A stretch of 28,070 nucleotides of DNA. It comes from a virus. A program made the translations under genes and the position numbers. The notes beneath the pieces are model-generated. The model was not told the DNA's origin. It ran no database searches and saw only the letters and a program-made list of their open reading frames with translations. The DNA is taken from positions 1 to 28,070 of IMG/VR virus record IMGVR_UViG_3300037225_001478; one strand, given 5' to 3'. Positions 1,072-17,034 of this stretch are shown here, in pieces; position 1 is the first letter of the stretch; each line of letters starts with the position of its first letter.

Positions 1072-2525
1072 TGGAGATCACAATTCCTTATAATTACACG
1101 CCGCGAAATTATCAGGCAGGGCTGTTTAATTGCATTCCGAACGGTTATAAGCGCGGGGTTGCTGTGTGGCACAGGAGATCAGGCAAAGACAAGACCCTGC
1201 TCAATCTCATCGTAAAAGAAGCCCACAAGCGTGTCGGTACGTATTATTACTTTTTCCCCACGTACAACCAGGGCCGGAAAGTTCTATGGGACGGAATAGA
1301 CCGCGACGGATTCCGGTACATGGATCATATTCCGGAATCTATACGCGAGAACACTAACCAGGCTGAAATGAAAATCAAGCTGAAGTGCGGCTCACTCATC
1401 CAGATCATCGGGACGGATAACATCGACGCGATCATGGGTACTAATCCTGTGGGGTGCGTTTTTTCGGAGTACAGCTTACAGAACCCCGCGGCATGGGATT
1501 TGATACGGCCTATTTTAGCGGAAAACGGCGGATGGGCGCTATTTAATTACACGCCCAGGGGACGCAACCATGGTTTTATTTTATATGAAATGGCGAAGAA
1601 TAACCCTGCATGGTTCTGCGAATTGCTCACCGTCGATGATACCGATGTGGTCAGTCCTGGAATGATTCAGGCTGAACGAGAATCAGGTATGTCGGAATCA
1701 AAGATCAAGCAGGAATTCTATTGCTCGTTTGAGGCTTCACTGGATACGTGTTTCTTCATGGGAGTTCTTGAAGATCATAAATATTTACAGGCGGGGACCA
1801 TCGGCAGCGTTCTTATCGATAAGAAGACAAAGGATATTGATTTTATCGAGACTACGCAGGGAACAATCGAACTGTGGCGTTTTCCGTATTTCCTGACGGA
1901 TAAGTGGGACCAGCTCCACTGGAAGTACCGCTATTGTATCGGGTCCGATATCGGAGAGGGATTGCAGCAGGATTATTCTGTGGCTTATGTCTATGACCGC
2001 TGCAAAAAAGAGTTTGTGGCCCGCATGCGGAGCAATGCGATTGATTCGTACAAGTGGGGAGACAGGCTTTTTAATTTATCCCGCTATTATGAAAACGCGC
2101 TAATCGTTCCGGAGAGAAACGGCGCGGGCATCACCACGATCGACAGGCTTATCGCTCTCAAAGCAAATTTGTATGTCAAAGAGAAAATCGATTCGATCGG
2201 CAAGGCGCTCACCAAGCAATACGGTTTTTTAGAGACTCGTGAGGCCAAGCAGCTGGTCTGCGGATCTCTTAAATCGTATCTGGCACAGCACAAGCCGGTT
2301 TATTGCCGGTACCTGCTGGGGGAATGCGCAACTTTTATCAAGGATGAAGAAAAGGAAAAGCTGGGTGCGGACAGTAATTTTCACGATGATTGCGTGATCG
2401 CCGCGGCGCTCGCGCTGCATGGAGATTTTTATCTGCCGAAGTGTGAAAAGATTCCAAGGCCTGTAAGCGGCTTTCGAGCGCGTCAGGCTGCAGAGGCGAA
2501 AGAGGGGGAAATATGGGCGAGTTGA
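1071..2525 (+). CDS. Terminase large subunit (packaging ATPase/nuclease)
   Basis: This is the motor that pumps DNA into the procapsid and cuts it. The N-terminal ATPase domain has a Walker A-like segment HRRSGKDKT (residues 34-42), a Walker B-type strand ending in FSEYS (131-135, with the acidic residue E133) and a coupling motif NYTPRGRNH (159-167). The C-terminal RNase H-like nuclease domain shows D293 in GSDIGEG, E348 in VPERNGAG and the HDD pair at 438-440, the expected metal ligands. At 484 residues it is normal for the family. It starts at GTG 1071, inside the stop of the small subunit, with GAGGTCAGG just upstream, which implies translational coupling. Its last codons (2513-2525) are duplicated at the start of the next gene; see the repeat entry there. 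Confidence 0.93.
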   Translation: MEITIPYNYTPRNYQAGLFNCIPNGYKRGVAVWHRRSGKDKTLLNLIVKEAHKRVGTYYYFFPTYNQGRKVLWDGIDRDGFRYMDHIPESIRENTNQAEMKIKLKCGSLIQIIGTDNIDAIMGTNPVGCVFSEYSLQNPAAWDLIRPILAENGGWALFNYTPRGRNHGFILYEMAKNNPAWFCELLTVDDTDVVSPGMIQAERESGMSESKIKQEFYCSFEASLDTCFFMGVLEDHKYLQAGTIGSVLIDKKTKDIDFIETTQGTIELWRFPYFLTDKWDQLHWKYRYCIGSDIGEGLQQDYSVAYVYDRCKKEFVARMRSNAIDSYKWGDRLFNLSRYYENALIVPERNGAGITTIDRLIALKANLYVKEKIDSIGKALTKQYGFLETREAKQLVCGSLKSYLAQHKPVYCRYLLGECATFIKDEEKEKLGADSNFHDDCVIAAALALHGDFYLPKCEKIPRPVSGFRARQAAEAKEGEIWAS

Positions 2526-2526
2526 A
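2513..2526 (+). repeat. 14-bp direct repeat, left copy (pairs with 2671-2684)
   Basis: The sequence atgggcgagttgaa occurs here across the terminase stop codon and again at 2671-2684, where it forms the start of the next gene. The two copies bracket a block of palindromic repeats. Joining them restores a compact boundary in which agaggggg (from about 2502) would be a strong ribosome binding site for an overlapping start. This looks like a target-site duplication. Confidence 0.75.
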
Positions 2527-2670
2527 ATTGTTTCCACTTCCGTCACTTCGCGACACCTCGGCCTGCGGAGGACATTAATTGTAGGACGCGTTTCCAAAAA
2601 CGCGCCACTCGGATCGTTCAGGGAACGATCCCTACAGTATAGTTCGTAATGACAAAAGGGAGAGAAATCA
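2527..2670. repeat. Palindromic repeat cassette, families D and C
   Basis: A family D element (about 2530-2579; shared core ends gcggaggacattaattg) is followed by a family C element (2580-2640; opens gtaggacgcg and ends ccctacagta, with internal hairpins acgcgtttccaaaaacgcg and gatcgttcagggaacgatc). No gene is visible. About 20 bases before 2671 carry a short ribosome binding site, gggagag. Confidence 0.75.
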
Positions 2671-3189
2671 ATGGGCGAGTTGAACCATCAAAGTGACAGG
2701 CAAAGTGACAGGCAAAGTGACAGGGAGAAACTTAAGCGCACAAAGGAAGTCGTTAAACTGGATGGCCGTTTGCTCGAAGCCTGCGCTGAATTACGGCACG
2801 CAGTTGAACATCCGAATGAGAGCGCGGATATTATTATTGCTAAAGGACTTTACCGCAAGAAGGACCCGGAAGCGATTATGACAATTGACTGTGACGGCGT
2901 TGTTGTCGGGTACAAAATAAAAGAGTGTTCGCCGCTTGCGATCAATCCGTATTACGACCGGTATGTTTATGTGAGGACTCCCAATTATCGCCTTAAGGAT
3001 TTATCAGACAAGGAACTGGCGACGATAAAATTTACTGTTTTGGAATCATTCTTTGAACAGCAGCAGGGAGAGATTCATGTTGAAGTGATCGGGGAAGGCG
3101 CTCTTTTGATGTGGCAGAGGTTCATGGTGGCTTTTGCCTACAAATATCAAAACGCGACGGTGCAGGTGCCGAGAGGATTACCGCAATGA
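2671..3189 (+). CDS. Uncharacterised small phage protein between terminase and portal
   Basis: A 172-residue soluble protein that I do not recognise. It begins with a low-complexity stretch encoded by three perfect 12-bp tandem repeats (2689-2724), read as SDRQSDRQSDRE. A globular part then alternates strands and helices (for example AIMTIDCDGVVVGYKIKE and RYVYVRTPNYRL) and ends in a helix rich in aromatic residues. Its place between large terminase and portal suggests a packaging or virion-accessory role, but nothing shows one. The start is supported by gggagag eight bases upstream. Its TGA stop falls in gcaatgaca, a string that also ends the family B repeats. Confidence 0.7.
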   Translation: MGELNHQSDRQSDRQSDREKLKRTKEVVKLDGRLLEACAELRHAVEHPNESADIIIAKGLYRKKDPEAIMTIDCDGVVVGYKIKECSPLAINPYYDRYVYVRTPNYRLKDLSDKELATIKFTVLESFFEQQQGEIHVEVIGEGALLMWQRFMVAFAYKYQNATVQVPRGLPQ

Positions 3190-3191
3190 CA

Positions 3192-3351
3192 GAAAAACAA
3201 TCCTCCTCCGGCGCTTCGCGCCACCTCCTCCAAAGGAGGACAGGTAAGGAACTAATAGTTAGATTTGCGGGTCTAAAGACCCGGACTACGAAAGATTAAA
3301 AGAAGAGATTGCCACGCCGCATGAGATGCGGCTCGCAATGATAGACGAAGG
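3192..3351. repeat. Palindromic repeat cassette, families D, A and B
   Basis: Family D at about 3201-3243 (hairpins ccggcgcttcgcgcc and ctcctccaaaggag), family A at 3264-3299 (cgggtctaaagacccg at 3268-3283) and family B at 3305-3343 (ccgcat gag atgcgg apex inside gagattgcc...gcaatgata). The string gcaatgaca at 3183-3191, across the previous stop codon, recurs at 3352-3360 just before the portal ribosome binding site. It therefore brackets the cassette, although family B itself ends in nearly the same string. Confidence 0.75.
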
Positions 3352-3373
3352 GCAATGACACGATAGGAATAAT

Positions 3374-5344
3374 ATGCAAAATCAAGATGAGACATTGGTG
3401 ACGCCCACTTCGGGAATTAATATTAAGAAAATACAGGAATCCGGCGCGGATGACAAGGTGGTGGAAGTCTATCGCCTTTTGAAGCGATACAAGGAAGACA
3501 CCGAGCGTCAGGAGTGGGAGAAGCAGGTCTATAAGCGCGGCTGGGAAGTGGCCTGGGGGAAAAAGGACGCTTTGTGGTCCGATGAAGAAAAGAATCAGAT
3601 GATTAATCGCGGGCAGATTCCTATTGCGATCAATGACGTCAGCAAGGGCGTTCAGGGATCCGCGGCCGTGGCTACAGCCAATAAGCCAGGCATTAATGTC
3701 AAACCGATAGGATCGTCTGATTTGTACGTCGCGGAGTTGCTCAAGCGCGGGTTTGACTTTGTGTGGGGGCAGAATAACGGCGGGGAAGTCCTGTTTGATG
3801 TGGTGAAGGAATGCAAGACGGGGTCGCTGGGCGTGATCGATGTAAAGTTCGATGAAACAAAAGGAAAGTTCGGGAAAATTATTTTCCTCTCCGATAATCC
3901 GCTGGATTACTATTGGGACAAGAAGTCGCGGCTCTCAAGCAAGGTTGATTCCCATCTTATCAAAGCTCACCTGATTACGAGGCAATACGCTAAAGACAAT
4001 TACGATGTCACGGATGACGACCTCGAGTTTAATATGGTGCCGAAGGATTCAGAGGTGGGGCAATCTTCAGCGGGTCACCCGGGTGAGGATGAATACGCCC
4101 GCATGCTTACTTCCGAGGATAAAGATAGTCGTTCTGACCATGACCCAGCCGAGGACGCCGATGTTTATGAAATCGAAGCGTGGCTGATCAAGAAAGAGAA
4201 AACACACTCCGTGATGACGGTTAATCCTCAAACGTCCGCGGTCGAGAAGTTTGAGTTTGACTCTAAAAAAGAAGCCCAGGCGCGGATTGATGAATTAAAG
4301 AGCGAGTTCGGGTTGGACGCCACGTACAAAGAGAAGGTTACCGAAGTCCGGAAACAGCGGATCATTGTCGGCAAGAAACTCATCTCCGAAGAAACCAATC
4401 CTTACGGCCTGGATTCCGACGCCGATCCGGTTATTCCAAAACTGTTGGTCGGCCATGATCGGTCTTATAGCGGCTATTTTGTGGGGCCGACGTACAGGGC
4501 AATCGAAATATCAAAGAGCCGCAATAAACGCCGCACGCAGACGGTTTATGTCATTTCCAAGAACATTGACGCGCCTGTCATGATGACGGAAGGTTGCAAG
4601 TGGGAGAACGATCCAAAATACGGCGATAGCCTGAAGGTGCCCAAAGACGCGCCGTTTGCGCCTTCGCGTTTGCTTCCCGGGACGACGTCTTCGGAACTGA
4701 TGGCCATGGAGCAGCGCGACGAAGTGGCGCTCAATGATGAGTTCGATATGCAGGAAGTGATGAAGGGGAAATTGCCGCCGGGCGTTGATTCCGGGAAACT
4801 CGTTATCGCCCTCCAGGATCAGGCGGGTATGATGTCCACGCCATTCTTAGGCGTGGTGGAATCAACCATCGAGAAAACGGCAAAAGTTTTATTTTCATTG
4901 ATGCTGCGGCACTGGCCGAGGCAGATGTGGGAGCGTTTGATCGATCCGGAAGAGGTAAGTAGCTGGCAGCCGGAAAAGGATAAACAGATTGACCCGAACA
5001 CCGGAGAGACCGTGCCGCCCGATCCCAACGATATTCAGGCCAAGTGGATTGCGGCTGTCGATCAGGTGCGTCCCGCGGACATCACCAAAGACCCGCCTAT
5101 CGATCTGGAAGGTCTGCATATCAGGATTGTTGCCGGTTCGACGACACCGACAAACAGGATGGCGAAACGCCTCGATGCCATGGAAATGGTGAAGGCTGGT
5201 ATTTATCCGCCGGAAATCGCTTTGGATTACATCGACGATCCGAACGCGGATAAAGCAAAGATATTGTTACAGCAGGAGAAACAACAGCAGATGCAGATGA
5301 TGATTGCACGAAGCGGCAATAGCGGGGGCGGCGGTGAATGTTAA
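3374..5344 (+). CDS. Portal protein (P22-type)
   Basis: This protein should form the twelve-fold ring at the capsid vertex through which DNA enters and leaves. At 656 residues it is in the range of the P22-type portal family. The N-terminal part is helical and charged, followed by PIAINDVSKGVQ (from about residue 83) and then ATANKPGINVKP, the pattern that in P22-type portals leads into the wing and clip region. The C-terminal region has helices around GVVESTIEKTAKVLFSLML and a glutamine/methionine-rich tail (QQEKQQQMQMM) ending in a glycine run, consistent with a barrel-like extension. The start has an AGGA ribosome binding site. The stop overlaps by four bases the 3' end of a gene on the opposite strand. 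The assignment rests on sequence pattern plus position after the terminase. Confidence 0.85.
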   Translation: MQNQDETLVTPTSGINIKKIQESGADDKVVEVYRLLKRYKEDTERQEWEKQVYKRGWEVAWGKKDALWSDEEKNQMINRGQIPIAINDVSKGVQGSAAVATANKPGINVKPIGSSDLYVAELLKRGFDFVWGQNNGGEVLFDVVKECKTGSLGVIDVKFDETKGKFGKIIFLSDNPLDYYWDKKSRLSSKVDSHLIKAHLITRQYAKDNYDVTDDDLEFNMVPKDSEVGQSSAGHPGEDEYARMLTSEDKDSRSDHDPAEDADVYEIEAWLIKKEKTHSVMTVNPQTSAVEKFEFDSKKEAQARIDELKSEFGLDATYKEKVTEVRKQRIIVGKKLISEETNPYGLDSDADPVIPKLLVGHDRSYSGYFVGPTYRAIEISKSRNKRRTQTVYVISKNIDAPVMMTEGCKWENDPKYGDSLKVPKDAPFAPSRLLPGTTSSELMAMEQRDEVALNDEFDMQEVMKGKLPPGVDSGKLVIALQDQAGMMSTPFLGVVESTIEKTAKVLFSLMLRHWPRQMWERLIDPEEVSSWQPEKDKQIDPNTGETVPPDPNDIQAKWIAAVDQVRPADITKDPPIDLEGLHIRIVAGSTTPTNRMAKRLDAMEMVKAGIYPPEIALDYIDDPNADKAKILLQQEKQQQMQMMIARSGNSGGGGEC

Positions 5345-5847
5345 TACTCTTTATTTCTGACAATTTTATCGATATGGCTTTTGGCTGTCTCATATATTCG
5401 ATAATGATTTTCTTCGAATATTACGTTTTTACAATTAAGTTTCAAGAATTCCGGACAGCAAAATTTATTTGATAGATAGATAAAAGGCAAATCATGTGTT
5501 TTGCAGATAGGAAATCTATCAACCACGAAAGAATCGTTGCTATAAATTGTTGTTTTCCACTTTTGTTCGCCAATGGGGAAATATTTTATTTTATACGGGA
5601 GAGATTTTGATGGGTTTAATATTCGAGACATTATGGCATACATTAATACAACACTGCACAGAACCAATAGGATTGTTGACCATAATGGCATGGGTGACTG
5701 CAGTATTTCAAATAAAATATGTTTTAGACTTTTGGAAAAAGCCACACCCCCCAGTGTCGCAGCAACAGCAAAAACAATTAATGAAACAATTGCATTATGC
5801 ACATCTGCGAATATTTTTTTTAGCCATTGTTTTAGTATTTTCAACAT
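5341..5847 (-). CDS. Reverse-strand membrane protein with a Cys-rich tail (moron-like)
   Basis: A 168-residue protein read against the direction of all surrounding phage genes. It has a basic amphipathic N-terminus, two predicted membrane helices (about residues 18-38 and 55-74), and a soluble C-terminal domain with C115-K-T-H118, C130-C131 and C139, a layout that could bind zinc. I do not recognise the family. It fills the gap after the portal, overlapping its end by four bases. Upstream, on the minus strand, is a candidate promoter shared almost base for base with another reverse gene (see 5887-5915). Independent promoter, opposite strand and no structural role are the marks of a moron, a gene expressed from the prophage for the host's or prophage's benefit, such as superinfection exclusion. 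That function is inference. A + strand frame (5610-5879) competes for this stretch. Confidence 0.6.
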   Translation of the reverse strand: MLKILKQWLKKIFADVHNAIVSLIVFAVAATLGGVAFSKSLKHILFEILQSPMPLWSTILLVLCSVVLMYAIMSRILNPSKSLPYKIKYFPIGEQKWKTTIYSNDSFVVDRFPICKTHDLPFIYLSNKFCCPEFLKLNCKNVIFEENHYRIYETAKSHIDKIVRNKEY

Positions 5848-5886
5848 CTGCTCTTTTTTTTCGATTGTCGGGTGGATAATGTATTA

Positions 5887-5915
5887 TGATTACCATTTTA
5901 TTTATTATTATTCAA
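5887..5915 (-). promoter_or_regulatory. Candidate promoter for the reverse gene at 5341-5847
   Basis: Read on the minus strand, TTGAAT (5915-5910) and TAATCA (5892-5887) are separated by 17 bases of A/T-rich DNA. The surrounding 64 nt (5888-5951) match 11443-11506 at all but two positions, and both copies sit upstream of a minus-strand gene. The -10 match is modest; the case rests on the spacing and the shared context. Confidence 0.5.
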
Positions 5916-5929
5916 GAGGTTGGAATTTA

Positions 5930-6068
5930 CGGGTCTAAAGACCCGGACTACGAAAGATAAGAAAGTAGGGCGCGTTTCCCTAAACGCGCCGCGCGGATCG
6001 TTCAGGGGAACGATCCCTACAGTAGATATGGGATTGCCGCCCTTCGACAGGATCAGGGCGCAATGACA
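5930..6068. repeat. Palindromic repeat cassette, families A, C and a B/E hybrid
   Basis: Family A hairpin at 5930-5945 (cgggtctaaagacccg, then gactacg), family C at 5965-6025 and, at 6031-6068, a family B frame (gattgcc...gcaatgaca) whose apex is replaced by the family E hairpin cccttcgacaggatcaggg (6040-6058). Nesting of E inside B shows that these units recombine as modules. Confidence 0.75.
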
Positions 6069-6082
6069 AAGGGAAGTAGGCA

Positions 6083-6172
6083 ATGACTGACGTGCAGAAG
6101 AAAATCATCATTGAAATATTAAAAGCCCTCAAGGGCATTGAAAGGATGTTGCAGGAACTTATTAAGAAATAG
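6083..6172 (+). CDS. Putative 29-residue amphipathic peptide
   Basis: A very short frame with a usable ribosome binding site (gggaagtagg) ending five bases before ATG 6083. The peptide is a single regular helix by eye, with isoleucine and leucine spaced like a coiled coil (KKIIIEILKALK, then RMLQELIKK). It is followed by a good intrinsic terminator at 6201-6238, which supports a real transcript end here. The start codon lies in gcaatgac, the same string that ends the family B repeats. I know no homologue. It could be a genuine small regulatory or membrane-active peptide, or a chance frame. Confidence 0.4.
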   Translation: MTDVQKKIIIEILKALKGIERMLQELIKK

Positions 6173-6200
6173 CTTACGTTTCGATCAGTACACGAAATTA

Positions 6201-6238
6201 AAGGCGGCTTATCTCGAAAGGGATGGCCGTCTTTTTTT
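6201..6238 (+). terminator. Intrinsic terminator
   Basis: AAGGCGGCT (6201-6209) pairs with GGCCGTCTT (6225-6233), with two wobble pairs, and ATC (6211-6213) with GAT (6222-6224). A run of seven T follows (6232-6238). It separates the packaging/portal transcript and tiny peptide gene from the scaffold-capsid genes. The 80 bases from 6239 to the scaffold start hold nothing else I can name. Confidence 0.7.
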
Positions 6239-6321
6239 ATGCCTTCTGGACGGGCTTTAAATGTCCAAGAAACCGGTTACCGTGGCGACCGCATAAGCCA
6301 TGCGATTGAAAGAGAGGAATT

Positions 6322-7431: not shown

Positions 7432-7467
7432 CTTTTTGTGAAGGCCAACACATAAGGAGTTTTAAAA

Positions 7468-8457: not shown

Positions 8458-8553
8458 CTGATTATGGCGGCTAGTTTGCACTGGCCGTGCAGATGATAAG
8501 GGGGTCTCCCGCCCCTGCCGCCGCCCGAACACAGGGAGATTGAGGAAAATATA

Positions 8554-9237
8554 ATGGCAGAAGCAAAAAAGAAAGACCCGGTCTCAGCGGGAGAAGATAA
8601 GGGTACAGCGGGAATGAAGGGAATACCGATGGGCGAAGGGCCAAGGAAAGAGATTGCCACGGCTCCCAAGGGTCGCCTCGCAATGACAGAGGCGGAGCTT
8701 AATTTTCAGCCGATACCGCTCAAAGCGGCACGTGTTTCGCGTCCGTTTGACGGCTATCCTATGAAACGCGTCACAATAGGCGGGACTGAAACGTATCTGG
8801 CCTATGTGGTTGCTCTTAATCCCACGGTTGCCGTCCGGTTGGACCCATCAAACCGGAAAGTGAAAATGAAGGATGGAACTTTTGAGCAGGTCAAAAATAC
8901 TCATGCCCGTTTTATCCGGGATTATGAGGAAAACGAAAACACCGAAGTTGTCTTTGACCGCATTATGGAAATCGGCGGCAAAGAATACTATTGCGCAATC
9001 GTTCCGTCGCACAACGTCCGCGCCCAACTCTGCTTTAAATACGAGGATAAAAACAAGCGCATTGTCGTCGATTCCAATTATTTATTTCTGGATACGGCAC
9101 AGGATCAGCGCCTTAAACGCGTATTTGAGCAGATCATCAATCCGAAGCTGCAACTTGAGCGCGAGGCGGCATTTATAGCCGGTGAGTCCACCCAGGACGC
9201 CGGCGTTGAAAAAACTCTGACCGAGGACGAGGTCTAA
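8554..9237 (+). CDS. Structural protein of unknown role carrying a translated repeat
   Basis: A 227-residue protein after the capsid gene, family not recognised. From about residue 46 it reads as a globular mixed fold (for example YPMKRVTIGGTETYLAYVV and ARFIRDYEENENTEVVFDRI). Residues about 32-46 are encoded by a family B palindromic repeat (8649-8688), which stays in frame and is read as KEIATAPKGRLAMTEAE. The ATG ending that repeat (8683) could be a second start for a 184-residue form, but only the ATG at 8554 has a ribosome binding site (TTGAGGAAAA). Possible roles are head-completion or minor capsid protein. The preceding 96 bases (8458-8553) contain a GC-rich stretch without a clear terminator. 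Confidence 0.7.
   Translation: MAEAKKKDPVSAGEDKGTAGMKGIPMGEGPRKEIATAPKGRLAMTEAELNFQPIPLKAARVSRPFDGYPMKRVTIGGTETYLAYVVALNPTVAVRLDPSNRKVKMKDGTFEQVKNTHARFIRDYEENENTEVVFDRIMEIGGKEYYCAIVPSHNVRAQLCFKYEDKNKRIVVDSNYLFLDTAQDQRLKRVFEQIINPKLQLEREAAFIAGESTQDAGVEKTLTEDEV
8648..8690 (+). repeat. Family B palindromic repeat inside a coding region
   Basis: The frame agattgccac...gcaatgacag, seen as intergenic DNA at 3305, 13411, 15630, 15736 and 16859, occurs here within the coding sequence. The apex ggctcccaagggtcgcc is a different, still partly paired, stem. Its length keeps the reading frame open. Confidence 0.75.
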
Positions 9238-9240
9238 AAT

Positions 9241-9891: not shown

Positions 9892-9927
9892 ACGGCATTT
9901 TAAATGCCACTTTATATGGAGGATATG

Positions 9928-10800
9928 ATGAAGAAACAATTTTGGTTAATCAGTTTGATTATTATGTTGACGGTAGTTTTTACGCTTCCTGTCTTCGCGT
10001 ATAACGATTTTTACGCGCAGGTGGTCAAGCGCGATAACACCTCTACGGGCAATATTGCTCTAACACCCATTACCACGGGAATAACCTATCAGGTTCTGGA
10101 TGCGGGAACCAACACCATTTCCACTCTGACAAAATTCGCGGATAATTCCTATACAGCGGTGACTAATCCAGTGACTCCCACTGTCTTTGCGGCCTCTACC
10201 GGCGGCAACGGAAATATAAAGTTTAGAAACGCTAACACAACCGTTGATATTATCGTCACGGACACCAACGGCGGCTATACTGCCGTTGTGAAGGGATTTT
10301 CACTCAGTCAGCACACCATTGTCATCGATGAGACGCCGAATATGCCCCATCACGGCATCATATGGTTTGCGCCGTCCACGGCTGAGACTTCAACAGGAGT
10401 TTCTTTTGTGCCCGATACTTTTGTCGGCGATGTGCGCGTTCAGGTTATTACAACGGATTCGGCCAAGACCATTGCCGTTGGTCTGTTATCCACTCAGACA
10501 AACGGAAGCGCGACCGGCTTTATTACCGGATTGCTGATGACCACAGCGGGATATGTCGCGGACACTGCCGTCTCTACTAAGGGATCAAACGGCCAGTATG
10601 TTCCGGCAAGTACCTACGGAGCGTTTCTATACACCTGCACGACCGGTACGGATTCGGCCAATGTCGATCTTGTGGGCGGGAAAACTTATACCGGTTATAT
10701 CGTGACAGGCGCAAACGCGACAACGATATCGTATACCGGCAGCGGCGGAACAACCACGGCAGCGGGTTATATCCATTACTGGTTTACCCGGATGAAATAA
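9928..10800 (+). CDS. Phage structural protein with a Sec signal peptide
   Basis: A 290-residue protein in the structural block with a classical signal peptide: KK at the N-terminus, a hydrophobic core (FWLISLIIMLTVVF) and a VFA cleavage site before YND. The mature part is rich in Thr, Ser, Gly and Asn with alternating beta-strand pattern (for example NIKFRNANTTVDIIVTDTNG), like virion fibre, decoration or Ig-like proteins. The frame is open from an ATG at 9904, but GGAGG at 9918-9922 fits the ATG at 9928 best and places the KK at the start. Its last 24 bases recur at 11504-11527, downstream of an inserted cassette. Export of a structural-looking phage protein is unexpected; two other genes here share the feature. 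Confidence 0.7.
   Translation: MKKQFWLISLIIMLTVVFTLPVFAYNDFYAQVVKRDNTSTGNIALTPITTGITYQVLDAGTNTISTLTKFADNSYTAVTNPVTPTVFAASTGGNGNIKFRNANTTVDIIVTDTNGGYTAVVKGFSLSQHTIVIDETPNMPHHGIIWFAPSTAETSTGVSFVPDTFVGDVRVQVITTDSAKTIAVGLLSTQTNGSATGFITGLLMTTAGYVADTAVSTKGSNGQYVPASTYGAFLYTCTTGTDSANVDLVGGKTYTGYIVTGANATTISYTGSGGTTTAAGYIHYWFTRMK
10777..10800 (+). repeat. 24-bp direct repeat, left copy (pairs with 11504-11527)
   Basis: This end of the secreted structural gene, including its TAA stop, is repeated exactly at 11504-11527. Each copy is followed within about 20 bases by a similar GAAA-loop hairpin, so the duplicated unit may be about 70 bases with the second half diverged. The pair brackets the two genes at 10863-11150 and 11136-11417. 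Confidence 0.8.
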
Positions 10801-10814
10801 GTGCCTCCTAGACT

Positions 10815-10843
10815 AACCTGGGCGGGGAAACCCGCCCGGTTTT
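10815..10843 (+). terminator. GAAA-loop terminator hairpin
   Basis: GGGCGGG (10820-10826) pairs with CCCGCCC (10831-10837) around a GAAA loop, extended by AACC/GGTT with one bulged base. Four T follow. It ends the transcript of the secreted structural protein. Confidence 0.7.
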
Positions 10844-10862
10844 GAGGACAAGGGAATTGATA

Positions 10863-11150
10863 ATGAAGGGAAAGTACGCATTACAGCATAAATATACCGG
10901 AAGCCCATTTATGCGATGTTGTAATTGCCATTTTTGGTTTTCAGAAGAATCAAAAAAGGAAGGGCAATGCAGACATAATTCTCCACCGTGGTATATCACT
11001 AAATTCAATGATTATTGCGGATCATGGGGAGATGCAGTTGGATTGTTTGAAGAATATTTCAAGAGATCAAACGGAAATTTATTCGATAAAAATTACAAGT
11101 TTGAGAATTTTCTCGAAGAGAAATATGGCGATATATTAGCGAAAACATAG
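10863..11150 (+). CDS. Small Cys-rich protein (putative zinc-binding)
   Basis: A 95-residue soluble protein with cysteines at 19, 20, 22, 36 and 52 in the order CCNC...QCRHNSPP...DYCGSW. I recognise this as a recurrent pattern of small uncharacterised phage and bacterial proteins that probably bind a metal through four cysteines. The frame extends to a TTG at 10842, but AAGGGA lies seven bases before the ATG at 10863, which I choose. It is within an insertion bracketed by the 24-bp repeats and overlaps by 15 bases the 3' end of the convergent gene on the minus strand. A regulatory or accessory role is possible; none is shown. Confidence 0.65.
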   Translation: MKGKYALQHKYTGSPFMRCCNCHFWFSEESKKEGQCRHNSPPWYITKFNDYCGSWGDAVGLFEEYFKRSNGNLFDKNYKFENFLEEKYGDILAKT

Positions 11151-11417
11151 ACTAATAATTATGGCAAAAACCGATATGACTAATGAAATAAATGCAACAA
11201 TTAAAGAACGTTTTGAAAACACAAGCATATCGTTTGTTAAATTTACGAGTGCTTCCGTCATGGAAAGCATTTTTGATTCGCGATCTTTTATTCGACGATT
11301 CCATTCTTGGCGTGCAGAAATATGATTATCTGCAGAAGAGGGGGAGGCACAAATGTTTTTGATTATTTCTTCGTCTGAAGCTTTTGAAAAATTGAATTCC
11401 ATAGTTTTTGGCTCCAA
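11136..11417 (-). CDS. Reverse-strand single-span membrane protein (moron-like)
   Basis: A 93-residue protein with a charged, helical N-terminal domain (NHISARQEWNRRIKDRES) and one C-terminal membrane helix at about residues 72-91. The frame is distinct from the neighbouring forward genes and no better forward frame overlaps it. Its upstream DNA carries the same 64-nt promoter-and-repeat module as the reverse gene at 5341-5847, although the two proteins are not similar. It lies inside the 24-bp-bracketed insertion, opposite the Cys-rich gene. A prophage-expressed accessory gene, such as exclusion or lysis control, is a reasonable guess only. Confidence 0.6.
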   Translation of the reverse strand: MEPKTMEFNFSKASDEEIIKNICASPSSADNHISARQEWNRRIKDRESKMLSMTEALVNLTNDMLVFSKRSLIVAFISLVISVFAIIISLCFR

Positions 11418-11441
11418 TGTTTATTTTTGGGGATTTTGATA

Positions 11442-11470
11442 CGATTAGCATTTTATTTATTATTATTCAA
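11442..11470 (-). promoter_or_regulatory. Candidate promoter for the reverse gene at 11136-11417
   Basis: On the minus strand TTGAAT (11470-11465) is followed 17 bases later by TAATCG (11447-11442), a poor -10; TATCAA lies slightly further on. Evidence is mainly the near-identity of 11443-11506 with 5888-5951, which also precedes a minus-strand gene. Confidence 0.45.
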
Positions 11471-11484
11471 GGGGTTGGAATTTA

Positions 11485-11506
11485 CGGGTCTAAAGACCCG
11501 GACTAC
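11485..11506. repeat. Family A palindromic repeat
   Basis: cgggtctaaagacccg at 11485-11500 followed by gactac, running directly into the right copy of the 24-bp repeat. Confidence 0.8.
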
Positions 11507-11527
11507 TGGTTTACCCGGATGAAATAA
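11504..11527 (+). repeat. 24-bp direct repeat, right copy
   Basis: Exact copy of 10777-10800, here non-coding. It marks the right edge of the inserted two-gene cassette. Confidence 0.8.
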
Positions 11528-11547
11528 ACTTTCAACCTCCTTTAGCT

Positions 11548-11574
11548 AACCGAGGCGGGGAAACCCGCCCGGTT
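11548..11574 (+). terminator. Second GAAA-loop hairpin
   Basis: GGCGGG (11554-11559) pairs with CCCGCC (11564-11569) around GAAA, with AACC/GGTT below an internal loop. It is a diverged copy of the hairpin at 10815-10843 but lacks a T-run, so it may be a decayed or weak terminator. Confidence 0.5.
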
Positions 11575-11603
11575 AATAAAAATAAAACGCAAGGGGAATG
11601 AGG

Positions 11604-11834
11604 ATGGAACGCGAAGCGATCAAGGAAGCTGTAAAGGAAGCTCTAAACGAAGAACTTAAATCATTCTACATTGACCGCGAAACTCATTACAAACAACATG
11701 AATTTCTTGGCGAAATGATGAAGTATGCAGAAACTTGCAAAAGCGCTGTTTTGAAGGCTGCAATAACTTTCATTGTCGGTGCTGCGATAGGTTTAATGGG
11801 ACTTGGATTTTATATTAAACATGGTTTCAAATAA
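11604..11834 (+). CDS. Small membrane protein, holin-like candidate
   Basis: A 76-residue protein with a charged helical N-terminus (EAIKEAVKEALNEEL), a conserved-looking IDRETHYKQHEFLGEM segment and one C-terminal membrane helix at about residues 51-69. It sits directly before the lysozyme gene, the usual place for a holin or holin partner. Small phage proteins with DRE.HY..H followed by one membrane span are common in this position. AAGGGG six to seven bases before ATG 11604 favours that start over ATG 11598. One span with a large soluble N-terminus would suit a pinholin-like or anti-holin role, but this is inference from context. Confidence 0.6.
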   Translation: MEREAIKEAVKEALNEELKSFYIDRETHYKQHEFLGEMMKYAETCKSAVLKAAITFIVGAAIGLMGLGFYIKHGFK

Positions 11835-11844
11835 GGAAAGATAA

Positions 11845-12294
11845 ATGACCATCGAAGATATTATCAAACCTATTCTTAAGGTCAGGGAAGGTTTCAGTCT
11901 GAAGGTCTACAAAGACTCTCTGGGCTACGATACGATTTATTACGGCCATAAGGTGGTACCAGGGGAAGTCTATCTCGGAACACAGGCGGACGCGGATGCT
12001 TATCTTGAAAAAGATATTAATGTTGCGGAAAATGCGGCCGGTTTTATCTTTCCCGAATTTAAATCATTTTCGTTATCCAGACAGGCCGCACTCGTCATGC
12101 TGATATTCAATATGGGTGCGGATAAGATCAAGCGCGGGTTTCCCCGATTTGTCCATGATGTAAATATCGGCGATTGGGACGGCGCGGGGAATGAATTGAA
12201 ATACTCCGATGGGAAATCGGTTCTTAGCAGTTGGTTTAAAGAAGTTCATCCCGACCGGGCAAACGAAATTATTAATATGCTGATTCAGGGGTAA
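11845..12294 (+). CDS. Phage lysozyme (GH24, T4-type endolysin)
   Basis: This 149-residue enzyme should cut the glycan backbone of peptidoglycan at lysis. The catalytic triad of T4 lysozyme (E11, D20, T26) is matched in spacing by E15 (VREGF), D24 (YKDSLG) and T30 (YDTIYYGH). The expected helical C-terminal part follows (LSRQAALVMLIFNMGADKI). The usual GIGH after the threonine is YYGH here, a mild departure. No signal or anchor sequence is present, so it would rely on a holin to reach the cell wall. It begins ten bases after the holin-like gene, with GGAAAG upstream. Confidence 0.88.
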   Translation: MTIEDIIKPILKVREGFSLKVYKDSLGYDTIYYGHKVVPGEVYLGTQADADAYLEKDINVAENAAGFIFPEFKSFSLSRQAALVMLIFNMGADKIKRGFPRFVHDVNIGDWDGAGNELKYSDGKSVLSSWFKEVHPDRANEIINMLIQG

Positions 12295-12317
12295 ATTTTT
12301 AAATAGGAGAAGAGCAT

Positions 12318-12330
12318 AGTTGTATTAAAA
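12318..12330 (+). repeat. 13-bp direct repeat, left copy (pairs with 13344-13356)
   Basis: agttgtattaaaa follows the lysozyme gene here and recurs at the end of the amidase gene, where it encodes the last codons and stop. Together the copies bracket the HNH and amidase genes. The left copy lies just after a purine-rich tggagaag-like stretch and could be the remnant of a deleted gene. Confidence 0.55.
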
Positions 12331-12337
12331 AAAGAAA

Positions 12338-12366
12338 CTGGATTCCGGTTTTCACCGGAATGACAG
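12338..12366. repeat. Palindromic repeat family F
   Basis: ATTCCGGT (12342-12349) pairs with ACCGGAAT (12354-12361) inside the frame ctgg...gacag. Elements of this form are scattered through many Desulfobacterota chromosomes by my recollection. Single copy in this window. Confidence 0.65.
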
Positions 12367-12420
12367 AGGTTCTTCTGACGGGTGGCCACTCTGACGAAGA
12401 AATAAAAAGCAAGGAATTAA

Positions 12421-12459
12421 GGGGCATGTCGGTGCCGACACATCGATGTGTCCCTTTTT
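12421..12459 (+). terminator. Terminator between lysozyme and HNH genes
   Basis: GGGGCATGT (12421-12429) pairs with ATGTGTCCC (12446-12454) through Watson-Crick and wobble pairs, with an inner CGG/CCG hairpin. Five T follow at 12455-12459. It would end the lysis transcript. Confidence 0.6.
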
Positions 12460-12482
12460 CTTTGCCCTTAGAGAGGTGAAAA

Positions 12483-12836
12483 ATGAAATCGGTAAGTAAT
12501 GCGACAGAGAAACATCCGGCATCGGCGAAGCGGTCAGGCTCATGGCCTAAAGCGCGTAAAGATTGGCTCGCTGATCATCCGAATTGCGCGGTGTGCGGAG
12601 GTAATAAAAAGGTTGAAGTTCATCATAAGCATCCTTTTCATGTTCATCCGGAGCTCGAGTTGGAACCTTCGAATTTTATCACGCTCTGCGAAAACGACAA
12701 GGACGGTGTGAACTGCCATTTGCTTTTCGGTCATCTGGGGAATTTTAAGAGCGTTAATTTGAGCGTCGAAGCAGACGCGGAGAATTGGAAGAACAAAATA
12801 ACCTTACGACCAAAGAACGCAAGCGAGGTGTGCTGA
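12483..12836 (+). CDS. HNH endonuclease-like protein
   Basis: A 117-residue protein with a full HNH core: zinc-site pair CAVC (C35, C38), the VEVHHKHP strand and histidines (H47, H48), N64 in EPSNFITLCE with C69, and NCHLLFGH (C78, H79, H84). Phage HNH proteins of this size often help the terminase cut DNA for packaging; others are homing nucleases. Here it is away from the terminase, between lysozyme and amidase, so either is possible. GAGAGGTG precedes the ATG. The stop overlaps the next start (TGATG), suggesting coupling. Confidence 0.82.
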   Translation: MKSVSNATEKHPASAKRSGSWPKARKDWLADHPNCAVCGGNKKVEVHHKHPFHVHPELELEPSNFITLCENDKDGVNCHLLFGHLGNFKSVNLSVEADAENWKNKITLRPKNASEVC

Positions 12837-13354
12837 TGAACGATCTTACTTTATACAATAAGTTACGACCCACGATTCAGACCGGCGATCTGATTGAGTG
12901 GCATGAAGATAGTATACTGGGAGCGGCTATAAGGGAACGCACCGGGTATGATGTCAATCACAGCTCGCTTGTCGTTGTTCTGAACAGTCCGTACGCAGGG
13001 AAACGGGTGCTTCTGTTTGAAGCTTTAGCGGACGGGATTGATATTACCTTTGCCTCTCAAAGATTCGGTACAGATGAAGGACACGCTTATTACTATGCGA
13101 TGAAATCTGAACTTGATGCGATGCGTCCAGGGATTGAAACGATTGCTTTTGGTTATGTGGGCGTTCCTTACGATTACATAGGAATTGCGGAGATCCTCGT
13201 TCTTGGACATCAGAAGATCGGCAATGACAAGAGAATATTCTGTTCAAAGTTCGTGGAAGTGGCTCACGGCGGTCAGCCTGACGATATAGCGTACTGGCCG
13301 GGAGAGTTGCCGGTGAAACTTCAGCATTGGCAGGGAAGGGTAAAGTTGTATTAA
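12836..13354 (+). CDS. Permuted papain-like amidase/peptidase (YiiX/NlpC-P60-related)
   Basis: This 172-residue protein has the order expected for circularly permuted NlpC/P60-type enzymes. IQTGDLIEWHED comes first, then the catalytic histidine candidate H42 in NHSSLVVV, a strand with E62 (LFEALADG), FGYVGVPYDYIG, and the nucleophile candidate C136 in IFCSKFVEV. Such proteins cleave amide bonds in peptidoglycan or lipids; in phage they are lysis or entry enzymes. The start at 12836 overlaps the HNH stop and follows GAGGTG; an in-frame ATG at 12785 lies within the HNH gene and is unlikely. Position near the lysozyme supports a cell-wall role. Confidence 0.75.
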   Translation: MNDLTLYNKLRPTIQTGDLIEWHEDSILGAAIRERTGYDVNHSSLVVVLNSPYAGKRVLLFEALADGIDITFASQRFGTDEGHAYYYAMKSELDAMRPGIETIAFGYVGVPYDYIGIAEILVLGHQKIGNDKRIFCSKFVEVAHGGQPDDIAYWPGELPVKLQHWQGRVKLY

Positions 13355-13356
13355 AA
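13344..13356 (+). repeat. 13-bp direct repeat, right copy
   Basis: Exact copy of 12318-12330, here covering the final codons and stop of the amidase gene. Confidence 0.55.
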
Positions 13357-13357
13357 T

Positions 13358-13450
13358 TTCCACCTCCGGCGCGTTCGGGCCACCTCCGCCAGCGGAGGAC
13401 ATATAAATGCGAAATTGCCATGCCGCATGAGATGCGGCTCGCAATAACAA
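13358..13450. repeat. Palindromic repeat cassette, families D and B
   Basis: Family D at 13358-13407 (ccggcgcgttcgggcc and ctccgccagcggag hairpins), nearly identical to the copy at 15685-15733, followed by family B at 13411-13450 with apex ccgcat gag atgcgg. Confidence 0.8.
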
Positions 13451-13460
13451 AAGGCAAAAT

Positions 13461-15260
13461 ATGAACCTTGACCCATTGGGATTCAATCAAAATACAGATC
13501 CGTCGGGATTAAATAATTATCCCGCTCTGCTTGCCGTTGAGACGCACGAATCTGCGCCTCCCAATGAAAATTGGTGGGACAAAACCAAAAGAATTATCGG
13601 CGAAGTCGGGCATGCCAGAAACGCTTCTATTGCAGCGGCAGCTAAACCTCTTGGTGAAGTTGGTGCCTCTTTAATTACAGGAACTGCCGCACTTGGGCCT
13701 GCTATTGGTTCGATGTTAATTCCAAGTCAGGAATCTATAGACAATCTTATAAATGGCAATTGGAACACATTTATTAATCCCAGAGTAGAACTGCAAAGCA
13801 GACTAAACAGGGCAAGACAGGCCGCAGGTTTATTTACATATGAACCAACAAATCCGGAAGCAAAAACGATTTTAAAACCTGTTAATGATGTAGTGGGATT
13901 TTTACCCAAATACGGAGGAGAAGCCAGAGATTATTATAATAGTCTTGGGGATCAGGCGGAGAAAAATGGTGATTTAAAAACAGCCGAGGCATGGCGATAT
14001 TTAGCAACAACAACCGACTTTAGCGCTGAAGCATTAAATTTGTATGCCTTGAGTAAAGCCGGAAAGACAGGCGGTATATTAAAAGAAAAAGTTACACCGC
14101 CTGAAATTAATTTGGGTGATTTATCAGGAGATGGGAAACCATATTCTATAACTCAATTACCAGCACCCCAAGAGCCTATTGTTAACAGAGTCGGCAATCC
14201 TTACAGGACATCTGCGGATGCTCAAAGCATAATGGAGAGTAAAGGGCTTGCCGATACGCACGAGGTCATTCCTTATGAAAGCGGCTTTGCGTTGCAAAGA
14301 AAAGGCGCCCAATCCCTGCTGCAGGATTTACTGGACCCACTGAAATTATATAAAGAACCCGTTCCCACCCAAGAGACACCCGCACCAGTAAAAGCTCAAT
14401 CTGTGCCATCCATGCCAGGTATAGATACAAAAGAACCATGGCAGATGACACCGGACGAACTAAGTCTTTCACATCGTACTATCATAGAAAAAGCTCTTTC
14501 TGAAAACAAACCCGTTCCAGCGGAAGTCTTAAAGGATTATCCCGATTTAGCAATTGAACATGGAAAATCAATCATTGATCAAATGATAAAAGATCATACT
14601 GATAAGCCTGCCGCCATGTATCGTGATGATGTTGGAACAATAGAATTTCCATGGGGGAAGGAAGGAAATCCGAAAAATAGTTATTATGGCGGCTTCGGTG
14701 TTTCTCATATAATTGCGAAACATGGTGAACCTGTAGCTAATAAGGTGGTTGAGGTTATTGCCGAAGGTGATATTTGCAAAGAATCTGGCCCCCCGAATGG
14801 CACAAGAATTGATGTGAAATACGATGGTCACACCGCAATATTATCTCTTTATAAAAATAGAAACCGTGAAACGTGGTTGTTGACAGGCTGGAAAGATGAC
14901 ATACCCACTGGTGAACCGGAAGGGGAGTACGGCCCTGCCGGGTCTACGCACAACGGGCCTATGCGTTTTCGTCCCGATGTGGGAGCAGTGAATAAAAATT
15001 TAATAACTCCGGCAAAAGATTTTGTCAATAGCAAACACTATAAAGACGATTATAAAAAAACCCCCGGTGTTCCTGAGGAATCTAACAACCTTCAGGACTA
15101 CGCACATCAGACCTCCGGTAGCCGTTCTGATGTGGGTGCGGGAGTTGATAATAATTTAACACCAGCAAATGATTCTGTCAATAGCAAACACAATAAAGAA
15201 GGTAAGAATTCCCAGCAGGGTAGAATTGTGCCTCGTGGAAGAATTAACGGACAATACTAA
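13461..15260 (+). CDS. Polyvalent-type phage protein with a C-terminal nuclease-like domain
   Basis: A 599-residue multidomain protein. Residues 1-200 are helical with an alanine/glycine-rich, possibly membrane-interacting segment (about 58-88). Residues 328-365 carry a motif ending KPVPAEVLKDYPDLA, which I associate with phage and plasmid polyvalent proteins. Residues about 390-480 resemble the phage Barnase/EndoU/ColicinE5-RelE-like (PBECR) nuclease group: WGK, FGVSHIIAKHG with H416 and H421, a VIAEGDI turn and a closing WLLTGW strand. Such proteins are thought to ride in the virion and act in the newly infected cell. The C-terminus contains a diverged tandem repeat (505-528 and 556-579, sharing VNSKH). 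The stretch is more A/T-rich than the capsid genes, suggesting separate ancestry. AAAGG precedes the ATG. The domain call is by pattern only. Confidence 0.65.
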   Translation: MNLDPLGFNQNTDPSGLNNYPALLAVETHESAPPNENWWDKTKRIIGEVGHARNASIAAAAKPLGEVGASLITGTAALGPAIGSMLIPSQESIDNLINGNWNTFINPRVELQSRLNRARQAAGLFTYEPTNPEAKTILKPVNDVVGFLPKYGGEARDYYNSLGDQAEKNGDLKTAEAWRYLATTTDFSAEALNLYALSKAGKTGGILKEKVTPPEINLGDLSGDGKPYSITQLPAPQEPIVNRVGNPYRTSADAQSIMESKGLADTHEVIPYESGFALQRKGAQSLLQDLLDPLKLYKEPVPTQETPAPVKAQSVPSMPGIDTKEPWQMTPDELSLSHRTIIEKALSENKPVPAEVLKDYPDLAIEHGKSIIDQMIKDHTDKPAAMYRDDVGTIEFPWGKEGNPKNSYYGGFGVSHIIAKHGEPVANKVVEVIAEGDICKESGPPNGTRIDVKYDGHTAILSLYKNRNRETWLLTGWKDDIPTGEPEGEYGPAGSTHNGPMRFRPDVGAVNKNLITPAKDFVNSKHYKDDYKKTPGVPEESNNLQDYAHQTSGSRSDVGAGVDNNLTPANDSVNSKHNKEGKNSQQGRIVPRGRINGQY

Positions 15261-15294
15261 CTTTTCAATAAAAAATGACAAAGGAGCAAATAAA

Positions 15295-15546
15295 ATGAAA
15301 TCGAATCTATTGAGACTGAATTTACAGGACTTGGGGCATGGTTTTATCATGGCTGTGGGAGTGGTGTTTATCGCGCCTCTTCTTCCGATTCTGCAAACCG
15401 GCGCTTTCCCTGATACGGCGACCATTAAATCGTCTTTGGCGGCAGGACTTGCCGCGGGGCTGGTTTATCTCGGGAAGAATCTTTTTACAAATTCGCAGGG
15501 GGAAATCGGCAAACCTGAGATAAGCAATTATAAAATAGAGGGATAA
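15295..15546 (+). CDS. Small two-span membrane protein, holin-like candidate
   Basis: An 83-residue protein with two hydrophobic segments (about residues 14-33 and 45-60) joined by a short turn, ending in a polar tail. The segment LVYLGKNLFTNSQGEIGKP is the part I recognise from small phage membrane proteins often labelled holins. The frame is open further upstream, but AAAGGAG lies nine bases before ATG 15295. It is separated from the lysozyme by 3 kb, so the window has two holin-like genes; which one times lysis is unclear. Its stop region (AGGGATAA, 15539-15546) recurs next to the adaptor start. Confidence 0.6.
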   Translation: MKSNLLRLNLQDLGHGFIMAVGVVFIAPLLPILQTGAFPDTATIKSSLAAGLAAGLVYLGKNLFTNSQGEIGKPEISNYKIEG

Positions 15547-15780
15547 AAATATTTCGGTTCAATCTGCAAGATTGAACCAACGTATAGATTTACGGGTCTA
15601 AAGACCCGGACTACGAAAGATTAAAGGAAGAGATTGCCACGCCGTCCGAGGGACGGCTCGCAATGACAGAGGGGAAACAAACAATCCACCTCCGGCGCGT
15701 TCGGGCCACCTCCGCCAGCGGAGGACATATAAAACGAGATTGCCACGCCGCGCGAGGCGCGGCTCGCAATGACCGAAGAA
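15547..15780. repeat. Palindromic repeat cassette: hairpin, A, B, D, B
   Basis: A perfect 10-bp hairpin (ggttcaatct, loop gca, agattgaacc, about 15556-15578) is followed by family A (cgggtctaaagacccg at 15593-15608), family B (15630-15668, apex ccgtcc gag ggacgg), family D (15685-15733) and family B again (15736-15774, apex ccgcgc gag gcgcgg). AGGGATAA flanks the block on both sides (15539-15546 and 15781-15788). No gene is visible. Confidence 0.8.
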
Positions 15781-15791
15781 AGGGATAATCC

Positions 15792-16727
15792 ATGTCTGAT
15801 TTTTTAACCTTCGCTACGCTGTATCAGGATTGCTGCCGGTTGATCGGCGATCTCAACAAGAGCCGTGTTAATGAAGTCAAATCCGTCATCAATTCCGTCT
15901 ATCTCGATGAAATGCTGAATGTTGACGAATTAAGGCCGCTGTTCTGGCTGCGGCGCTTTAGCGATTCGATATTGATGAAGCTCTCCGATACGGCGGTTTC
16001 AATCTCAAACGCGAACCCGGCGGTGATGGTGACTACAGGAGACATTTACGCGACCAATGATATTGTGACGCTTTACAATATGCAGGTCATGCCGCAGTTG
16101 AGTAATCGCACGTTCCTCCTGACGCGCACTGCGGCATCGACCTACACCCTTGCAGACATCAACGGGTTTCCTATCGATACGACGAGCATCGGTAACCTCT
16201 CGACAAGTTCTTATCAGCAGGTGGGACCGGCCAACGCCGTTCAGCACAGGGGAATATTAAGCCCGTGGCCCATACGGCAGATCATTCAAATGAATCTGAT
16301 CGGCTTTATCAATCAATTAACCGCGATCAGTGAGCACGATCTTGAGCAGTCGATCACGTGGTGGGGCAACAGCAAAACGCGTCCGCTGCATTATCATCAT
16401 ATAAAGGCGTTCACGAATGCCGGCGTTGAGACGAACGTCATTCTCTGGTTCAACTGCAACGATCAGGCCTACGGGGTGCGGCTCTGGTACGAGGCAAGAC
16501 CTACATTACTGGTTAATGACAGTGACGTGCCTTTATTGCCGCCGCAGTTCCATGCGGCAATCGAAGCGGGCGTAGTGACCCGTTTGGGTGAAAACAAGGT
16601 ACAGGTGGAGGCGGGTGTTGTCTGGCCGCAGCTCTATAAGGCGCAGTGCGACGCGCTTAGGTCTTATAATAGAAAGCTGTGGTACGAGTACGAGAAAAAT
16701 CAAAGAGGCGAAATGTACATGCTATGA
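15792..16727 (+). CDS. Head-tail adaptor / tail-tube protein (P22 gp4 / T7 gp11-like)
   Basis: A 311-residue protein that should bind the portal after packaging and carry the tail. The N-terminal segment FATLYQDCCRLIGDLNKSRV with long helices, the following beta-rich middle, and the closing helices around LLPPQFHAAIEAGVVTRLGE are typical of podovirus adaptor proteins. The middle contains an insertion-like beta region (about residues 75-150), larger than in the short P22 gp4. Position directly before a nozzle-like gene fits. The start is supported by GGGAT eight bases upstream, a site that appears to be one arm of a duplication (15781-15788). The stop TGA lies in the first bases of a family E repeat. 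Confidence 0.75.
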   Translation: MSDFLTFATLYQDCCRLIGDLNKSRVNEVKSVINSVYLDEMLNVDELRPLFWLRRFSDSILMKLSDTAVSISNANPAVMVTTGDIYATNDIVTLYNMQVMPQLSNRTFLLTRTAASTYTLADINGFPIDTTSIGNLSTSSYQQVGPANAVQHRGILSPWPIRQIIQMNLIGFINQLTAISEHDLEQSITWWGNSKTRPLHYHHIKAFTNAGVETNVILWFNCNDQAYGVRLWYEARPTLLVNDSDVPLLPPQFHAAIEAGVVTRLGENKVQVEAGVVWPQLYKAQCDALRSYNRKLWYEYEKNQRGEMYML

Positions 16728-17016
16728 CCCTTCGACAGGCTCAGGGCACGATATTATTTACTCAGGGAACGATGCATGCAATCCGGACGCTGAGCTTGCC
16801 GAAGCGTCAGGGCACGATTTACGGGTCTAAAGACCCGGACTACGAAAGATTAAGGGAAGAGATTGCCACGCCGCATGAGATGCGGCTCGCAATGACAAAG
16901 GGGGAAATAATCCACCTCCGGTGCGTTCGGGCCACCTCCCCCAGGGGAGGACATTAATTGTAGGGCGCGTTTCCCTAAACGCGCCGCTCGGATCGGAAGG
17001 TGTTCGATCCTTACAG
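16728..17016. repeat. Largest palindromic repeat cassette: E, E', A, B, D, C
   Basis: Family E (tgacccttcgacaggctcag, from 16725), a second E-like hairpin (about 16787-16816, gacgctgagcttgccgaagcgtc), family A (16822-16837), family B (16859-16896), family D (16911-16959, hairpin ctcccccaggggag) and family C (16960-17020). TATGAC occurs at both edges (16723-16728 and 17017-17022). A forward frame runs through part of it but has no sign of being a gene. Confidence 0.8.
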
Positions 17017-17034
17017 TATGACAGAAGGAAACAT

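Follow-up and report, generated by a model that had tools for sequence, protein, structure and literature searches.

Repetitive extragenic palindromic (REP) sequences tagged with GTAG, their paired forms (REPINs, REP doublets forming hairpins) and the REP-associated tyrosine transposases (RAYTs) linked to them have been described in bacteria (PMC3733652, PMC3116915, PMC8266576). They have been reported only in core parts of host genomes, being absent from laterally transferred regions (PMC3686654), and the manner in which they disseminate has been described as unresolved (PMC3116915, PMC8266576). Here we analyse a tailed-phage contig, IMG/VR record IMGVR_UViG_3300037225_001478 (positions 1-28,070; the whole of this 28,070 bp stretch is referred to as the window), in which clusters of short palindromes, here called cassettes, are found at gene boundaries. 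The kind of element is already known; what is new is the phage setting, the variable duplications and the readable insertion junctions, and a search of the literature for phage-borne REPs found no relevant paper. Within the phage clade these repeats show presence/absence polymorphism, providing before-and-after sequences of insertion events, which make RAYT transposition, template switching and recombination between relatives directly testable.

The repeat families and their known counterparts

A few repeat families account for the cassettes: A (TCCACCTCCGGCGC..GGAGGACA), B (GAGATTGCCACG..CTCGCAATGACA), C (CGGGTCTAAAGACCCGGACTACG, whose minus strand begins GTAG and continues into a hairpin), D (GTAG-hairpin-hairpin-CTAC), E (CCCTTCGACAGGCTCAGGG) and F (a GTGAA/TTCAC hairpin found in relatives only). 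Family D forms a double hairpin preceded by an unpaired GTAG (z -3.9), which is the REPIN layout, and ends in a constant 3' tail (..CAGTATGACA) that is present in the related contig c50025 too. The palindrome of family B is under structural maintenance, its stem being kept by compensatory change: 97% of cells are paired, six of the 11 pairs have changed on both sides, and the covariation score was reached by none of 500 shuffles. Nearly all A-D copies are oriented in one direction, and the longer contigs of the phage clade carry a dozen or more repeat copies each, at many boundaries; in IMG/VR, exact matches to the C and A-D strings are confined to this clade.

Families C and D have the form of GTAG-tagged REPs and REPINs, being short extragenic imperfect palindromes of 20-40 bp, or head-to-head pairs of these, with an unpaired GTAG, and D being a double hairpin. 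Genomes of a single Desulfobacterota class, which was reached via a Deltaproteobacteria metagenome-assembled genome, contain copies similar to A, B, C and D, with 27-28 bases identical in the best copies of D. In these genomes C and D flank Y1/IS200-like transposase (Y1_Tnp) genes, the hallmark of RAYT-linked REPs; there are about 10 D-like matches around a PF01797 gene at loci L175/L137, family C lies on both sides of a Y1_Tnp gene at L173, and L177 has a C-like copy. Neither A nor B was found beside the Y1_Tnp loci examined, except for short partial A matches inside D stems, and a scan of phage proteins revealed no RAYT; C and D adjoin such genes in the bacteria and not in the phage. The phage repeats also differ from described GTAG elements in forming composite blocks with other families and in the variable duplications around the inserts, and their occupation of many phage boundaries contrasts with confinement to the core chromosome (PMC3686654).

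Judged by these likenesses, the cassette palindromes are of host type and REP/REPIN-like. It is from the repeat families and the RAYT linkage in those genomes, and from nothing else, that we infer the Desulfobacterota class carrying the A-D copies to be that of the host. The phage portal was not found in 155 genomes of this class, and the exact 28-base C pattern had no match in genome contigs.

Other described elements share some of these properties. Families A and B resemble TGTC-ended palindromes, as in CGTC-tagged REPs and Rickettsia palindromic elements (PMC3733652), although family B has longer two-part stems. As with the Rickettsia elements, one B copy (8650-8690) is embedded in frame within a coding sequence (8554-9237); it is absent from all relatives. 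Bacterial miniature inverted-repeat transposable elements (MITEs), for example Correia/NEMIS, are likewise short non-coding mobile repeats at gene edges, but the inserts described here are without common terminal inverted repeats or a fixed target duplication. Phage morons and lambdoid boundary sequences are small inserts placed exactly between compact genes, with the same boundaries reused in different relatives, and the present cassettes are similar in both respects; they differ in that much of the inserted DNA consists of non-coding palindromes of host type and that the boundary is duplicated.

Duplicated boundaries at filled and empty sites

The window was compared with 10 other viral contigs of approximately 83-89% nucleotide identity, which amount to about four further independent lineages, and with a distant relative at 70% identity. 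Empty sites, that is, boundaries without a cassette, were taken from close relatives of about 87% identity, of which c50025 (locus L128), c49719 (L006), c37196 (L001), c37099 (L009) and c47643 (L131/L014) are named below; all features are given on the + strand. By alignment to these contigs the cassettes are insertions, and assembly artefact was rejected because separate assemblies show the same arrangements (c21182/c50025/c49719 and c37099/c37196/c37184, 100% identical within each set). The initial annotation proposed, from the window itself, that cassettes are bracketed by duplicated boundary bases of 14, 9, 8 and 6 bp. All four pairs are present, and the 14 bp and 8 bp strings are each found as one copy at the empty sites, whereas the 9 bp and 6 bp pairs did not hold as drawn.

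At site 1, the 14 bp ATGGGCGAGTTGAA is found at 2513-2526, at the end of the terminase large-subunit gene and the original start of the next gene, and again at 2671-2684, and nowhere else in the window. Between the copies lies a cassette (2527-2670) comprising A (2533-2574), D (2581-2640) and a tail with a new ribosome-binding site (RBS). Contigs c50025 and c49719 have no cassette and exactly one copy of ATGGGCGAGTTGAA in the compact form, and c37196 and c37099 also lack the cassette and have one copy with a single substitution. In these empty sites the terminase stop overlaps the next start by 13 nt; the right copy in the window starts exactly at the ATG of the gene at 2671-3189. An overlap of at least 13 bp with the empty site is expected by chance with a probability of 3e-5 (0.003%). 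In the c47643 lineage this position also carries a cassette, flanked by two copies that have diverged.

At site 13, the 8 bp AGGGATAA is present at 15539-15546, the stop of the gene at 15169-15546, and at 15781-15788, the probable RBS of the gene at 15792-16727. The intervening cassette (15547-15780) contains a hairpin, C (15589-15624), B (15630-15670), A (15685-15727) and a second B (15736-15776). The empty site of c47643 has one AGGGATAA, in the context AGAGGGATAATCCATG, where it serves as both stop and probable RBS. Although string matching alone gives this pair a p of only about 0.02-0.04, the chance of an overlap of at least 8 bp with the empty site is 3e-4 (0.03%). Contig c37099 and the window have a common left junction at this site and different cassette content, which indicates that cassettes were remodelled after insertion. 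Sites 1 and 13 are almost certainly real insertions with real duplications, and the compact boundary predicted on removal of a cassette and one copy is actually seen in the relatives.

The remaining two proposed duplications are explained otherwise. The 9 bp pair (3183/3352) is GCAATGACA, the constant 3' end of family B, which occurs seven times in the window, as the caveat attached to that proposal had foreseen; relative to the empty site of c50025 the flanks of site 2 do not overlap (dup -19), and no target duplication is demonstrated for its cassette (3190-3373), which contains A (3201-3242), C (3264-3299) and B (3305-3345). At site 14 the right-hand TATGAC of the 6 bp pair (16723-16728/17017-17022) belongs to the constant 3' tail of family D, and the suspicion that this match could be fortuitous was well placed, since the longest string common to two boundary windows is at least 6 bp in 26-39% of random pairs (at least 8 bp in 2-4%). 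Against the empty site of c47643 the right junction falls at 17034, leaving an overlap of TATGA (5 bp) between 16723-16727, the stop of the gene at 15792-16727, and 17034-17038, the start of the gene at 17035-19656. The cassette between them (16728-17033), absent from c47643, contains E, an E-like element, C (16818-16853), B (16859-16897), A (16911-16953) and D (16960-17023). The duplication then amounts to 4-5 bp, the ATGA of this overlap being the stop/start overlap, and at least 5 bp is expected by chance in 0.7%; the alignment thus suggests a weak case of duplication that had been mis-assigned.

Further duplications were found beyond those first proposed. In the window, 24 identical bp at 10777-10800, the end of the gene at 9904-10800, and at 11504-11527, which is non-coding, bracket a 0.7 kb insert (10801-11503) that is also bracketed by two copies of a terminator-like hairpin; it holds two small open reading frames (ORFs), a conserved module M (11440-11477) and a C element cut short at 11506. 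In relatives the duplications measure 13+, 8, 11 and 51 bp. In c50025, c21182 and c49719 the start region of the post-portal gene is present in three imperfect copies around a 1.26 kb insert, with at least 13 bp duplicated as measured against c47643, and a second insert at the end of this gene is flanked by AAGGGTAG (read by eye against c37196). In c47643 there are 11 identical bp on either side of an A element, for which no relative supplies a clean empty site. In c37099, 51 bp copies at 16893-16943 and 17019-17069 (50/51 identical) flank a 75 nt piece made of an A end and D, and because this duplication sits inside a non-coding cassette, selection on genes cannot have produced it.

Three further candidates were too ambiguous to be counted: an F insertion that follows the major head protein gene in c37099, c37184 and c21077b (ACTAACnATTA, 10/11, where the overlap with empty sites depends on the alignment), a C element alone at 12843 of c50025 (about 8 bp with a gap), and the second insert in c43776, where AAGGGTA may belong to the end of the inserted gene itself.

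How the cassettes may have spread

The duplications measure 5, 8, 11, 13+, 14, 24 and 51 bp, in agreement with the proposal in the initial annotation that they vary in length unlike those of a single transposase. On the sequence evidence a fixed-stagger transposase is an unlikely source of the cassettes given this 5-51 bp range, the ends drawn from mixed families, the truncation of elements where they meet a junction (C at 11506, B at 17014 of c37099 and D at L016) and the presence in c37099 and c50025 of one B-C-A composite that occupies different boundaries in the two. That a DNA transposase moved the repeats as MITE-like elements, leaving staggered-cut target duplications, is accordingly very improbable to us: the repeats are short, non-coding, reiterated and bracketed by direct repeats, as such elements would be, but they have no common terminal inverted repeats. 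Retro-insertion, in which transcripts of repeat clusters would be reverse-transcribed at nicked phage DNA, would account for variable duplication lengths and for an orientation uniform relative to transcription; it has no positive evidence, however, since the inserts lack a constant 3' end and an A tail and may be truncated at either end, and the window proteins scanned include no reverse transcriptase domain, and we regard it as extremely improbable. Of the 'repair- or retro-type' mechanism first suggested, repair by template switching appears the better half.

We suggest, with about equal measures of confidence and doubt, that REP/REPIN-like repeats entered the phage lineage and spread by microhomology or template-switch copying during phage replication or repair. 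Repeats of host type (families A-E) would enter the lineage and spread between gene boundaries singly or as composite blocks. A nascent strand would switch at short homology to a repeat-bearing donor, copy a single repeat or several, at times together with adjacent phage DNA, and return upstream of its exit point, such that the target edge is copied twice. Selection for intact overlapping stop, RBS and start signals would then decide which duplications survive: as neighbouring genes overlap, only outcomes that re-copy this edge would persist, and most retained duplications would approximate the length of the functional overlap. Such a filter is suggested by the 14 bp duplication at a 13 nt ORF overlap, the 8 bp one equal to stop plus RBS, and the 4-5 bp one equal to ATGA, and the duplicated edge keeps both neighbouring genes intact. 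Copying of adjoining phage DNA is suggested by the A-D copy at 6204 of c50025, where the preceding sequence resembles the start of a gene 1.5 kb upstream (GGGTA-AGAATATGGCAGAATTAAAAGTGTTT). This likeness begins at GGGTA, which is common to both gene ends, and has a null of about 0.001; since the sequence ahead of A copies in bacteria is unrelated, this stretch is carried phage DNA.

Several observations weigh against spread by template switching, which is deduced from products alone. There is no clean empty site for the 24 bp, 11 bp and 51 bp duplications, the likeness in the sequence that precedes A, both at site 1 and at 17481 of c47643, could in part be target similarity, and the effective sample is about five independent lineages. 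The near-uniform A-D orientation would also be expected from an enzyme acting on one replication strand, as in the proposal that a host RAYT (TnpA-REP, a Y1 HUH enzyme) transposes REPs and REPINs into single-stranded phage DNA during infection, with repair making the duplications. The Y1_Tnp genes flanked by C and D, the GTAG..CTAC double hairpin of D and the unsettled dissemination pathway of REPs are also in keeping with this proposal, as is the finding that A junctions often follow TTGA or TTAA, although duplications are nevertheless present. IS200/IS605 relatives, however, insert 3' of a short fixed target and without target duplication, the insert units are composites and truncations and not REPINs, one cassette carried phage flank, and RAYTs were seen neither adjoining A or B at the loci examined nor among the scanned phage proteins; we consider direct RAYT insertion possible but unlikely.

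Exchange between relatives by recombination is certainly a further source of reshuffled boundaries. Beyond the core genes that they have in common, the relatives vary in what lies at their boundaries, up to whole small genes, and c21077 and c37099 are 96-97% identical yet sharply different at site 1. It is doubtful, though, that such reshuffling of filled and empty boundaries accounts for the cassettes without repeated de novo insertion, the duplications being old out-of-register joints, because each cassette still needs one insertion, the families recur at unrelated boundaries and the 51 bp duplication lies inside a cassette. A separate comparison at the boundary between the terminase and the next gene shows L003 (2876-3048) and L001 (3540-3561) to be wholly different, one of the two having F-type hairpins together with a gene start that has diverged; the contigs are 97% identical overall, pointing to recent local recombination.

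More broadly, and only tentatively, REPs and REPINs might spread by replication-coupled copying, whether RAYT-initiated or template-switching, in which a variable target stretch is duplicated and the junctions are recorded in the phage clade; this would provide a route for the horizontal movement of supposedly core-only REPs.

Further cassettes and other features of the contig

Cassette 3 (5885-6064) comprises M (5885-5922), C (5926-5958), D (5965-6024) and E (6040-6064). Module M, conserved over about 38 nt (TATGATTAGCATTTTATTTATTATTATTCAAGAGGTTG), recurs in relatives at L020 (near 3478-3515), L128 (5893-5923), L132 (613-644) and L016 (near 1444-1469). It either marks the 3' end of one or another inserted small-gene segment or immediately precedes a gene start, and may be a leader or RBS region that was carried along. 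The cassette at 13359-13449 contains A (13359-13401) and B (13411-13449), and no duplication was found around it. A single palindrome at 12340-12366 (GGATTCCGGTTTTCACCGGAATGACAG), similar to widespread TGTCATTCCGG-type (CGTC) REPs, lies upstream of an HNH gene that relatives lack. The 22 nt preceding it are similar to 13335-13356, and this likeness (12309-12330; 86%), which is not significant alone, was likewise treated as ambiguous.

The window genes, nearly all on the + strand, include terminase subunits, a P22-like portal, a major head protein, a phage lysozyme and an HNH protein. Searches of INPHARED with the portal found nothing, and with the cassette gave no match. In the window only, three perfect 12 bp tandem units (CAAAGTGACAGG; 2689-2724) lengthen the N-terminus of the post-terminase gene. 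The gene at 13461-15260 encodes a 599-residue protein with a PBECR1 nuclease-like domain (PF18809) at residues 385-480. At the contig end (24578-28070) there are two acyltransferase-domain ORFs (PF01757) on opposite strands, the first of which continues in frame from a tail-fibre-like N-terminal part.

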